From Dehalococcoidia bacterium (lineage in GTDB: Bacteria > Chloroflexota > Dehalococcoidia > CAUJGQ01), in the NCBI GenBank assembly GCA_035310145.1, contig DATGEL010000044.1:1-64000 (forward strand): a stretch of 64,000 nt of DNA. The letters are read 5' to 3'. This document shows, one piece after another, positions 2,283 through 9,766 of this stretch; within the stretch, counting starts at the first letter, position 1, and every line of letters begins with the position of its first letter. Position numbers and translations under genes: made by a program. The notes under the pieces were generated by a model, which worked only from the letters and a program-made list of their open reading frames with translations, was not told the DNA's origin and did no database searches.

Positions 2283-2642
2283 CTACTCGCCGGCGGGTTC
2301 GCCGCGGTCGGTACCTGCCGCGCGCAGGGCGCGACCCGGGCATGGCCGGGCGTGAACCGGCGTCTGCCCGCCGGCGAAGAGGCGCAGCACCGCCCCCGCG
2401 TGCAGGCAGGGGCAGTGCATGCGCACCTGCCGCGGCAGCCGCTGCTCGGCGATGCAGAAGCGGTCGAACGGACAGTAGGCCCAGCCTTCGGGCAGGGGGC
2501 CCTCGCCGCGGCGGGGCGCCAGCCGCGCCGCCAGCTCGTGTTCCAGCCCCGCGCGGAAGCCGGCGTCTGTTGCAACAGGCGCTTCCAGATCGCCCAGCAG
2601 CTGCTCCACGTCGTCCGCGTGCTGGGGTTCAAATCCGTTCAT
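2283..2642 (-). CDS. Small Cys-rich protein overlapping the sigma-factor gene, probable anti-sigma or accessory regulator
   Basis: The product has 119 residues and starts at an ATG 14 bases inside the end of the sigma-factor gene, an overlap typical of translationally coupled sigma/anti-sigma pairs. The N-terminus (MNGFEPQHADDVEQLL...) is acidic and helical, and FRAGLEHELAARL resembles the helix found at the start of many anti-sigma factors. The middle has four cysteines and a histidine (C57, C63, C77, C79, H81; CPFDRFC and HCPCLH), which suggests metal binding or redox sensing. There is no membrane segment, so a cytoplasmic regulator is more likely than a transmembrane anti-sigma factor. The family was not recognised; the role rests on position and overlap. 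Confidence 0.65.
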   Translation of the reverse strand: MNGFEPQHADDVEQLLGDLEAPVATDAGFRAGLEHELAARLAPRRGEGPLPEGWAYCPFDRFCIAEQRLPRQVRMHCPCLHAGAVLRLFAGGQTPVHARPCPGRALRAAGTDRGEPAGE

Positions 2643-3249
2643 GGCTGCCGATCTCCCCGTTGATCGCGCCGCGATCGCCATAGGCGCGGCGGAAGGCATG
2701 CCGTGCCCGCGCCAGCAGCGACTCCGCGGCGTCCTCGGAAAGCTGCAACTGCCCGGCCAATTCGCGGCCGCTGAGCCGGTCAAGATACTTCAGTGTCAGC
2801 GCCTGCTGGTAGCGCGGGGGCAGGGCGCGCAGGGCAGCCAGCACCAGGCCGCGCCGTTCCTCGCGCTCGACCAGGTCACACGGATCGATCAGGTCGCGCG
2901 GCTCGGCCACGAAGGCGGAGCGGATCTCGCCCAGGCGTTGCAGGCGGCGGAAGTGGTCGGCTACTTTGTGGCGGGCGATGCCGCAGAGCCAGGTGAAGAC
3001 CTCGGCGCGGCCGTCGAACCGCTCCAGGGCGCCGAACGCCGCCACCAGGCTCTCTTGCGTCAGGTCCTCGGCGGTTTGCTGGTCGCCGCCGACGCGGAAG
3101 AAGACGAAGCGATAGAGACGGTCGAGATAGGCGCTGGTGAAGATCTCCAGTGCCATGGCGTCGCCGTGCCGCAACCGGCGGAGGAGATCACTCTCATGGT
3201 CCGGGTCTGGCGGCGCCGGTTTCACATCGGTCCTCCGCGGCGCGCTCAC
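2629..3249 (-). CDS. ECF-type RNA polymerase sigma factor
   Basis: This is a 206-residue sigma-70 family protein of extracytoplasmic-function size. Region 2 lies at about residues 25-95 (FTSAYLDRLYRFVFFRVGGDQQTAEDLTQESLVAAF, then FDGRAEVFTWLCGIARHKVADHFRR). Region 4 lies at about 135-190 (LPPRYQQALTLKYLDRLSGRELAGQLQLSEDAAESLLARARHAFRR), a clear helix-turn-helix. It would direct RNA polymerase to a small envelope or stress regulon. The next gene downstream overlaps it by 14 bases and is the likely regulator of its activity. The cupredoxin gene 81 bases upstream on the same strand may belong to the same transcript or be a target. Confidence 0.93.
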   Translation of the reverse strand: MSAPRRTDVKPAPPDPDHESDLLRRLRHGDAMALEIFTSAYLDRLYRFVFFRVGGDQQTAEDLTQESLVAAFGALERFDGRAEVFTWLCGIARHKVADHFRRLQRLGEIRSAFVAEPRDLIDPCDLVEREERRGLVLAALRALPPRYQQALTLKYLDRLSGRELAGQLQLSEDAAESLLARARHAFRRAYGDRGAINGEIGSHERI

Positions 3250-3330
3250 CGCATTCAGATCGTTCGTCGCAGCAGGCGGGAATTTCCGTCGCTCGCCATT
3301 GATCGCGCCTGGGCGCCTGGGCGCAGCGGC

Positions 3331-6908: not shown

Positions 6909-6994
6909 TGGCGGAGGGGGAGGGATTCGAACCCTCGATCCCGAAGGATAACGGTTTAGCAAACCGCCGCACTAGGCCACTATGCGACCCCCCC
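6909..6994 (-). tRNA. tRNA-Ser (anticodon GCT)
   Basis: The minus strand reads a seven-G acceptor 5' strand (6988-6994) pairing with CCCCTCC (6913-6919, one G-U). The anticodon loop is TTGCTAA (anticodon GCT, decoding AGC/AGU) between GCGGT and ACCGT arms. The long variable arm (TTATCCTTCGGGATC) is diagnostic of tRNA-Ser. The T-loop GTTCGAATC is present, then discriminator G and an encoded CCA. A terminator follows. The Leu and Tyr classes also have long variable arms but are excluded by the anticodon. Confidence 0.95.
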
Positions 6995-7178
6995 CGAAAA
7001 CGCGAGCCTGGGCGAGCTTGCGCGAGGTTGATACCCCCGGCAACCGCCGCCCCGTCGCGTTGACGGTCTGACCACTGGCGAGTCTATCAGACCCGCCACC
7101 GCGTGGGAAGCCGCCACGCTCAAGCCTTCGCCGTCGAGCAACGGCGCCTGACGGGACGCGACAATCGGGGGCTGCGCG
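6995..7178. other. Short gap upstream of tRNA-Ser
   Basis: It lies between tRNA-Ser and the end of the BNR-repeat gene and should contain the tRNA promoter. No clear -35/-10 pair or other element was found. Confidence 0.4.
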
Positions 7179-8135
7179 CTACGCGTCGTCGGGGAGCGGC
7201 AGCAGCGCCTGGATCGGCGGCAGGCCAGATGCCTGCACCTGCCAGTGCTCGCCGCGGTCGTCGCTGCGATACACCGTGTCCGCGACCGCGGCGTACACCC
7301 GCTCCTCGCCCTCCGCCACCAGCGCCCCCACCATCCGCGCGAACGGCGCCGGCAGGCCCTGCTCCAGCCGCTGCCAGTGCGTGCCGCCGTCCTCACTGCG
7401 GTAGAGCACCACGTTGGCGCCGTTGCGCCAACCCGGCGGCGGCGTGGCCGCTGCGGCGGTGTACACCCGCTCGGGGGCGGCGGCACTTGCGGCAAACGTC
7501 ACCGTATAGCCCCGGTCCAGACCGTCGTCGTAGTGCTGCCAGCGGTCGCCGCCGTCATCGCTGCGGTAGAAGCCGCCGCCCGTCGTGGCGTAGAGGCGCG
7601 CCGTGGGCGTGGGCGTCACCGTGTGCACGTCCCAGTACAGCCCCTCGTTCAGGCTGAGCCAGCTGCGGCCGCCGTCGGGGCTGCGGAAGACGCCGCCCTC
7701 TTCGACACCGATGTAGATCCCGCCGGTCACTGCGGGGTCCGGCGCGATCGAGCGGATATGGGGAATGTGCGGCGGCGGCGGAAAGGTCCAGGTCTCGTAG
7801 CCGGGGATCTGCCGCACGGATTCGCAGGCCAGCCAGGTCACGCCGCCGTCGTCGCTGCGGTAAAGCATGGCGGGCGAAACGCCCAGGTAGAACCGGCCCG
7901 GCAGCCGCGGGTCGGCGGCGAAGGCCCAGACCTCCTCCTCCACGCTGCGCGGGTTGAGGCAGTCCCACTCGCCCTCCGCGCCGCGCCGCCAAACGGCGTT
8001 CTCCGCCGCAAGCGCGCAGACCGCCCGCGCGCCGCGCGCGAGGAAACGCGGCGCGGGCACCGTTCCCTCCGTTGTCGAGCGGTTCTCGGTCAAACAGAAG
8101 ATGCCATCGGCGGTGCCGGCAAGCAGGCGCGCCAT
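7179..8135 (-). CDS. BNR/sortilin-like beta-propeller repeat protein
   Basis: The ATG at 8135 follows GGAGGAGGG and gives 318 residues; the frame extends upstream but without a ribosome site. At least four Asp-box type repeats are visible: LYRSDDGGVTWLAC, VFRSPDGGRSWLSL, FYRSDDGGDRWQHY, LYRSEDGGTHWQRL and VYRSDDRGEHWQV. These mark a beta-propeller of the BNR/sialidase/Ycf48 group. There is no signal peptide, so it may be cytoplasmic. Without the sialidase Arg triad it is unlikely to be a glycosidase; related proteins are usually called 'exo-alpha-sialidase' by annotation pipelines without experimental support. A structural or binding role is the safest reading. Confidence 0.85.
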   Translation of the reverse strand: MARLLAGTADGIFCLTENRSTTEGTVPAPRFLARGARAVCALAAENAVWRRGAEGEWDCLNPRSVEEEVWAFAADPRLPGRFYLGVSPAMLYRSDDGGVTWLACESVRQIPGYETWTFPPPPHIPHIRSIAPDPAVTGGIYIGVEEGGVFRSPDGGRSWLSLNEGLYWDVHTVTPTPTARLYATTGGGFYRSDDGGDRWQHYDDGLDRGYTVTFAASAAAPERVYTAAAATPPPGWRNGANVVLYRSEDGGTHWQRLEQGLPAPFARMVGALVAEGEERVYAAVADTVYRSDDRGEHWQVQASGLPPIQALLPLPDDA

Positions 8136-8344
8136 TGGTTCCCTCCTCCAGACACGGCGGGGTGGCCGCGGGGACACGTCCATTCTACGCCCGCGGCGGA
8201 AGCACGGCAGCGCGTCCCGGTGATCGCATTGGCCCCGCGCCGGTGGCCAGAACTCCGCCGCGGTGGTACCGTGCGAGCGCGGGCGTATGAGCGCGTCCAC
8301 TCGCTTGCAACAGCGCGGCGACAGGGCGATACCGGAGGTGCAAC

Positions 8345-8635
8345 ATGGCGGAGACGGAAGGCAAGGCTCAGGTAGAGATCGCGTACTGCGTCACCTGACA
8401 GCTCTTCCCCACGGCCGCCTGGATGGCGACCGAGCTGTATGCGGCCTTTGGCAACGACCTTGCCCTGACCCTCACGCCCGCGGGCGGGGGCCGTTTCGAG
8501 GTCTACCTGAACGGTAAGAAGATCTGGGACCGCAAAGAGGCGCCGGGCCGGCCCTACCCCAGCCTGGCCGTGGTGCACGACCTGCACGACGTCGTCGCCG
8601 AGGCGATCGCGGCGGCCGAGGTGCCTGCCCGCTGA
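8345..8635 (+). CDS. SelW/Rdx family selenoprotein with in-frame TGA (Sec18)
   Basis: The ATG at 8345 follows GGAGGTGCAAC. Codon 18 is TGA (8396-8398), and the same frame then continues without interruption to a TGA stop at 8633-8635, giving 96 residues. The N-terminus reads VEIAYCVT-U, the CxxU redox motif of SelW, SelT and Rdx proteins. The rest (LTPAGGGRFEVYLNGKKIW, then GRPYPSLAVVHDLHDVVAEAI) matches that thioredoxin-fold family in order and length. A stem-loop of bacterial SECIS type lies directly after the TGA. The family is thought to act in thiol redox reactions; its substrate is unsettled. A start at 8423 would remove the active-site half, so reading TGA as selenocysteine is far more likely. 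The gene stands alone between minus-strand genes, and no selA, selB, selC or selD is present in the window. Confidence 0.88.
8399..8437 (+). promoter_or_regulatory. Bacterial SECIS-like hairpin after the TGA codon
   Basis: In the mRNA, CAGCUC (8399-8404) pairs with GAGCUG (8432-8437). Above an eight-base bulge, GG (8413-8414) pairs with CC (8430-8431), and CGCC (8416-8419) pairs with GGCG (8425-8428) around the loop UGGAU. Bacterial SelB recognises an apical hairpin about 15-25 bases after UGA; here the loop begins 21 bases after it. The fold was derived by eye. Confidence 0.7.
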
Positions 8636-8725
8636 GCCCGTGCGGCAAACGGTCGTCCTTCGCCGGCGCCCCACGGTCATGGCCTTCGCGCCTTCGCGCC
8701 TTCGCGCATGAAGCCTGGCCGCGGC

Positions 8726-9766
8726 TCAGCGCAGCAGCACCCGCGGCGTGCCCGGCTCCGCCGCGATTACAGCGCCCACCAGCCAGGCGCCGGGCAGGGC
8801 GCGCAGCAGCGGCTCGCACTGCTCGGGCGCGGCAGCGATCACCATGCCGACGCCCATGTTGAAGGTGCGGAACATCTCCATCTCCGGCACGTCGCCCGTG
8901 CGTTGGATGAAGCGGAAGAGCGTCGGCACGTCCCACGAGGAGCGCTCGAACTCGGCCGCCACGCCCTCGGGCAGGATGCGCGGCACATTCTCGTACAGCC
9001 CGCCGCCGGTGATGTGCGCCAGCGCCGTGATGCGCGGCAGGAGCGGCTGTAGCTCGTGCAGGTAGCCTCGGTGCGGCACCATCAGTGCCGCGCCGAGGCT
9101 GGTGTCCGTGCCCGGCACGATCTGCGCCAGCACCTCGCGATCGTGCTGCTCCGTCTCGGCGCCGCCCTGCGCGATCTGGAAGATCCGCCGTACCAGCGAG
9201 TAGCCGTTGGTGTGCAGGCCGTTCGACGGCAGCGCCAGCAGCGCGTCGCCGGGGCGGATGCGCGAGCCGTCCAGCAGGGCCTCGCGCTCGCAGACGCCGA
9301 CGATGAAGCCGGCGATGTCGAAGTCGCCGCGCTCGTAGACGCCGGGCATGTCGGCCGTTTCGCCGCCGATCAGCGAGCAGCCGGCCTCACGGCAGGCCTC
9401 GGCCATGCCCTCGACGATCGCTACTTTCTGGTCTTCGCTCAGGCCGTTGTTGGCAAGGTAGTCGAGGAAGAAGAGCGGCGCGGCGCCGGCGGTGAAGATA
9501 TCGTTGACGCAGTGGTTGACCAGGTCGCGGCCGACCGTGTCGTAGCGGTCCAGCACGCGCGCCAGCTTGACCTTGGTGCCCACGCCGTCGGTGCTGGAGA
9601 CGAGCACCGGCTCGCGGTACGCGCCCAGCTTCCACAGCGCGGCGAACGGCCCGATGCCGGCCAGGACTTCGGGCCGCGCCGTGCCCGCCGCCAGCCGCTT
9701 CATACGCTCGACGGCGCGGTTGGTCGCGTCGATATCCACGCCCGCCGCGGCGTAGGCGTCAGTCAC
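8726..9766 (-). CDS. purM: Phosphoribosylformylglycinamidine cyclo-ligase
   Basis: The product has 346 residues, the normal length for PurM (AIR synthetase), which closes FGAM to aminoimidazole ribotide with ATP in purine synthesis. Family blocks are evident: YAAAGVDIDATNRAVERMK at the N-terminus, LVSSTDGVGTKVKLA, NDIFTAGAAPLFFLDYLA, SLIGGETADMPGVY, PSNGLHTNGYSLVR, ITGGGLYENVPRILPEG and MFRTFNMGVGMV. It lies 110 bases downstream of purF on the same strand and is probably co-transcribed with it. Confidence 0.97.
   Translation of the reverse strand: MTDAYAAAGVDIDATNRAVERMKRLAAGTARPEVLAGIGPFAALWKLGAYREPVLVSSTDGVGTKVKLARVLDRYDTVGRDLVNHCVNDIFTAGAAPLFFLDYLANNGLSEDQKVAIVEGMAEACREAGCSLIGGETADMPGVYERGDFDIAGFIVGVCEREALLDGSRIRPGDALLALPSNGLHTNGYSLVRRIFQIAQGGAETEQHDREVLAQIVPGTDTSLGAALMVPHRGYLHELQPLLPRITALAHITGGGLYENVPRILPEGVAAEFERSSWDVPTLFRFIQRTGDVPEMEMFRTFNMGVGMVIAAAPEQCEPLLRALPGAWLVGAVIAAEPGTPRVLLR

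Follow-up and report, generated by a model that had tools for sequence, protein, structure and literature searches.

In the 64,000-nucleotide stretch of DNA analysed here (the window), which comes from an uncultured Dehalococcoidia bacterium, positions 8345-8635 of the forward strand hold a reading frame of 96 amino acids with one internal stop, the TGA at 8396-8398, and a terminal stop, also TGA, at 8633-8635. The ATG at 8345 is preceded, with a spacing of 6 nt, by a GGAGG ribosome-binding site at 8334-8338. When the internal TGA is written as selenocysteine (Sec, U), the read-through product is MAETEGKAQVEIAYCVTUQLFPTAAWMATELYAAFGNDLALTLTPAGGGRFEVYLNGKKIWDRKEAPGRPYPSLAVVHDLHDVVAEAIAAAEVPAR. 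Residues 14-18 read YCVTU, so that the TGA occupies the second position of a CxxC motif and the redox motif becomes C15-V-T-U18 (CxxU, 8387-8398), with the putative Sec as residue 18. Standard ORF calling keeps the part from ATG 8423 to 8635 alone, with a 70-aa product that has no CxxU motif. The initial annotation of this stretch had described a ribosome site and ATG opening the frame, a TGA at the second position of CxxC/CxxU and the loss of the active site in ordinary gene calling from 8423 onward, and on all three points our analysis agrees with it. Neither a sigma-70-like promoter nor a terminator could be identified in the vicinity of the gene.

Family and predicted fold

The assignment of the gene to the SelW/Rdx family, also proposed in the initial annotation, is borne out by two curated profiles. 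The read-through protein matches the Pfam family Rdx (PF10262) with 63.7 bits against a cut-off of 22.6 (E 1.9e-17), over residues 9 to 70 and thus through the TGA, and the NCBIfam model TIGR02174 (CXXU_selWTH) with 46.9 bits (cut-off 34.2, E 2.5e-12). A profile built from the protein and its relatives retrieved from the PDB the structures 2fa8 (1.9e-23), 2p0g (2.1e-19) and mouse SelW, 2npb (3.2e-5). Frame, motif position and homology, taken together, are far beyond chance.

The AlphaFold2 model of the protein (mean pLDDT 86.6) shows a strand at residues 8-15, a helix at 21-38, three further strands and a C-terminal helix, with C15 and U18 in the loop where strand 1 gives way to helix 1. This is the thioredoxin-like SelW fold; the best PDB matches to the model are the bacterial SelW-related proteins 2obk, 2fa8 and 2p0g (E 3e-8 to 3e-7), followed by mouse SelW 2npb (1.7e-4) and MIEN1. 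In the fold alignment the window protein, which shares both fold and family with these structures, is 31-38% identical to the three bacterial proteins and 22% identical to mouse SelW.

The motif and the model also bear on the possibility that translation takes place only past the TGA, from ATG 8423, yielding a shortened protein without the redox motif. An ATG is available there, 24 nt downstream of the TGA, and no further stop interrupts the frame before its end. Against a start at 8423 stand the loss of strand 1 and of the entire CxxU motif from its product, the good ribosome site ahead of ATG 8345, and the conservation among relatives of the residues leading up to the TGA (VEIAYC). We regard such a truncated product as hardly credible.

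Selenocysteine machinery in the host genome

The genome from which the window comes is a draft of 5.32 Mb in 148 contigs, 99.8% complete and with 3.63% contamination. A lack of selenocysteine machinery, which the initial annotation had named as the result that would speak against its reading, is not what this genome displays: selA (519.6 bits), selB (325.2 bits), selD (365.5 bits) and tRNA-Sec (74.4 bits, anticodon loop CUUCAAA, i.e. anticodon UCA) are all present. These genes sit on contigs other than that of the SelW-like gene. Contamination is nevertheless an unlikely source for them, because the GC content of the tRNA-Sec, selD and selB loci (0.69-0.71) matches that of the window and because the only other genome of the host's family carries a selA 57% identical to that of the host.

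The selD gene has its own in-frame TGA at the active-site position, CGG-U-ASKV (positions 1209-1211 of locus L011, on contig C119). SelD is a listed selenoprotein with the motif UxxK (PMC13188914), the TGA corresponds to its known Sec position, and the SelD of this genome is thus, judged from its sequence, a probable selenoprotein itself. The formate dehydrogenase of the genome was considered as a further Sec gene and rejected, as it contains no TGA.

Sec and Cys copies across the class

We compared the gene with its counterparts in 393 genomes of the class Dehalococcoidia. An Rdx match was present in 157 of them, and at least 42 of the 393 carry an Rdx copy with one internal TGA. In the TGA copies that could be read in frame, the TGA stands at the second Cys of CxxC, the same codon as in the window gene, and in the alignments this position is occupied in class relatives by either TGA or Cys. 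Of the 42 TGA-bearing genomes counted in this way, 38 have a strong selA, against 253 of the 393 overall (Fisher p 5.7e-5); in the other four, all of them incomplete drafts, a full selA was not detected.

A query with the single protein against genome contigs found no relative, and a query with the alignment returned named relatives, most of them Chloroflexota that carry the label Dehalococcoidia or SAR202. In a tree of 72 Rdx rows the window copy falls within a group with support 100/96 that comprises 11 Sec rows and 3 Cys rows, and the tree as a whole requires about 6 changes between Sec and Cys; its deep forks are weak because the alignment has only 88 columns. The window protein is at best 51% identical to the rows of this tree and at best 57% identical to those of a 32-row alignment.

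This comparison weighs on two further explanations. The first is that the gene is a pseudogene, or that a sequencing or assembly error turned a TGC or TGT into TGA. A single base change would suffice, and in this fragmented draft assembly the frame of a DUF488 gene is interrupted as well. Against it stand the one TGA in the Rdx copies of at least 42 class genomes, at this very codon wherever the copy reads in frame, the intact and conserved remainder of the gene, and a full Sec machinery in the same genome, which argues against a dead or misread gene; we hold this explanation to be very unlikely. The second is that UGA codes for an ordinary amino acid here, through a change of the code to Trp or Gly, or is subject to non-specific readthrough. 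The frame would be open under any such altered code. The gene itself, however, terminates at TGA, tRNA-Sec and SelB are present, and aligned relatives alternate with Cys at the UGA position, not with Trp or Gly, so that this explanation deserves almost no weight.

Selenocysteine decoding of UGA by this organism, as the initial annotation had proposed, is supported both by the machinery and by the conservation of TGA or Cys at the site throughout the class.

In SAR202/Dehalococcoidia, tandem Rdx/SelW genes are recurrent and occur in many of the named relatives, with an upstream Cys copy followed directly by a Sec (TGA) copy (loci L127, L128, L130-L142, L144 and L150, at about 2640-3280, and also L060, L069, L085 and L086). 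Such tandem genes could be a Cys/Sec redox pair. Tandem pairs of this kind, e.g. that of Ca. Lucifugimonas marina (CP046147.1, L140), include the nearest Sec relatives of the window gene in the tree; in the window genome, by contrast, the Sec copy is the only Rdx gene and has no Cys copy beside it. At another locus (L064 of genome G381, at about 1547-1747) the copy that comes after a Sec SelW copy has SLSD in place of CxxC and retains no redox residues.

The hairpin downstream of the UGA

The published model of the bacterial SECIS element (bSECIS) has a loop of 3-9 nt with a G in its first two positions, a stem of 4-16 bp, a location 16-37 nt after the UGA and an MFE of at most -7.5 (PMC13188914 Fig. 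2A). A stem-loop following the TGA had been noted in the initial annotation, and there is indeed a predicted hairpin compatible with this model at 8398-8438, starting at the TGA, with an MFE of -16.3 to -19.2 kcal/mol (z about -1.8). It consists of a 4-bp closing stem plus an extension, and its apical loop UGGAU (8420-8424) begins 21 nt after the UGA, so that loop position (+21) and MFE (-16.3) both lie within the bSECIS constraints. By energy alone it is unremarkable: about 10% of synonymous variants of the gene fold as well and 68% reach a 4-bp stem, and the window hairpin by itself is not statistically exceptional. An Rfam scan of window positions 8000-9000 gave no match reaching the gathering score.

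Across the class, TGA and Cys copies could not be told apart by raw hairpin energy (mean -13.3 and -16.4 kcal/mol, respectively), nor by a loose bSECIS scan, which passed 41 of 42 TGA copies and 27 of 32 Cys copies. In the window gene the best hairpin of this loose scan is another one, with its loop at +28, so that the one at 8398-8438 is a candidate for the functional hairpin. After the loose scan had failed to separate the two groups, we designed a stem test at fixed positions, which asks for a G-bearing loop located between +16 and +23 and closed by a stem of 4 bp or more. Such a structure is found in 26 of 27 distinct TGA copies, where 17.7 are expected from synonymous shuffles, and in 24 of 45 Cys Rdx copies, where 24.6 are expected. 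The mean stem of the TGA copies is 5.5, against 3.9 expected from the shuffles, and TGA and Cys copies differ in this test with a Mann-Whitney p of 1.4e-6, a value to be read with the reservation that related sequences are not independent. These results show that synonymous sites of the TGA copies, but not of the Cys copies, are under selection for a hairpin whose apical loop contains a G and lies about 16-23 nt past the UGA. The position of the UGGAU loop of the window gene, at +21, is shared with the loops of many TGA relatives.

Proposed decoding and known selenoproteins

We conclude, with a probability of about 0.95, that the gene at 8345-8635 encodes a SelW-like Rdx selenoprotein of thioredoxin-like fold with Sec from the in-frame UGA. 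Insertion of Sec at residue 18 is what we infer from the computed frame, family, fold, TGA position, machinery, Sec/Cys exchange and group hairpin signal. The ribosome would start at ATG 8345 and meet the UGA at codon 18, where SelB and Sec-tRNA(UCA), recruited by the hairpin at 8398-8438, would insert selenocysteine; the outcome would be a C15-x-x-U18 redox centre in the loop that links strand 1 to helix 1. The product probably serves as a small cytosolic thiol/selenol oxidoreductase.

SELENOW-like proteins of PF10262 with CxxU are a high-confidence prokaryotic selenoprotein family (PMC13188914 Table 1); with 48 members they were the most abundant prokaryotic selenoprotein family in Sargasso Sea data (PMC1088965), and they are known from several bacterial phyla (PMC1794560). 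The window gene has in common with them the Pfam family, CxxU, the Sec position and a hairpin of bacterial SECIS type, and since such proteins are already catalogued in prokaryotes, it adds a member to a known family. Our literature search found no paper joining selenoprotein W with Dehalococcoidia, or a selenoprotein with SAR202.

The present results indicate that UGA is decoded as Sec in a large-genome lineage of Dehalococcoidia, in which SelD and the SelW-like protein, at the least, are likely selenoproteins; automatic annotation would truncate the gene of the SelW-like protein and drop its active site. The Sec and Cys copies found class-wide, tandem pairs included, are useful for the study of Sec/Cys exchange and of bacterial SECIS structure.

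Other features of the window

The second of two adjacent DUF488 genes (minus strand, 32804-32349) is interrupted early in its frame by a TGA at 32774-32772 (TIGFTQ-U-SA), and the initial annotation had suggested that Sec decoding might bear on this gene as well. This did not hold: in 29 class homologs the position is occupied by K, S, T, R or H, and by neither Cys nor TGA in any of them, so that DUF488 was rejected as a Sec gene. The stops of the homologs are at the normal C-terminus, the fold downstream of the DUF488 TGA is no better than shuffles (z 0.75), and our literature search found no paper joining DUF488 and selenocysteine. These comparisons favour a nonsense mutation or a sequence error as the origin of the TGA; that it too encodes Sec, which would make DUF488 a selenoprotein family with Sec at a site without Cys in any relative, is highly improbable.

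Finally, ARAGORN calls a tmRNA at 6909-7329 (minus strand) that overlaps a tRNA-Ser(GCT) at 6909-6994, and given this overlap the tmRNA call looks spurious.
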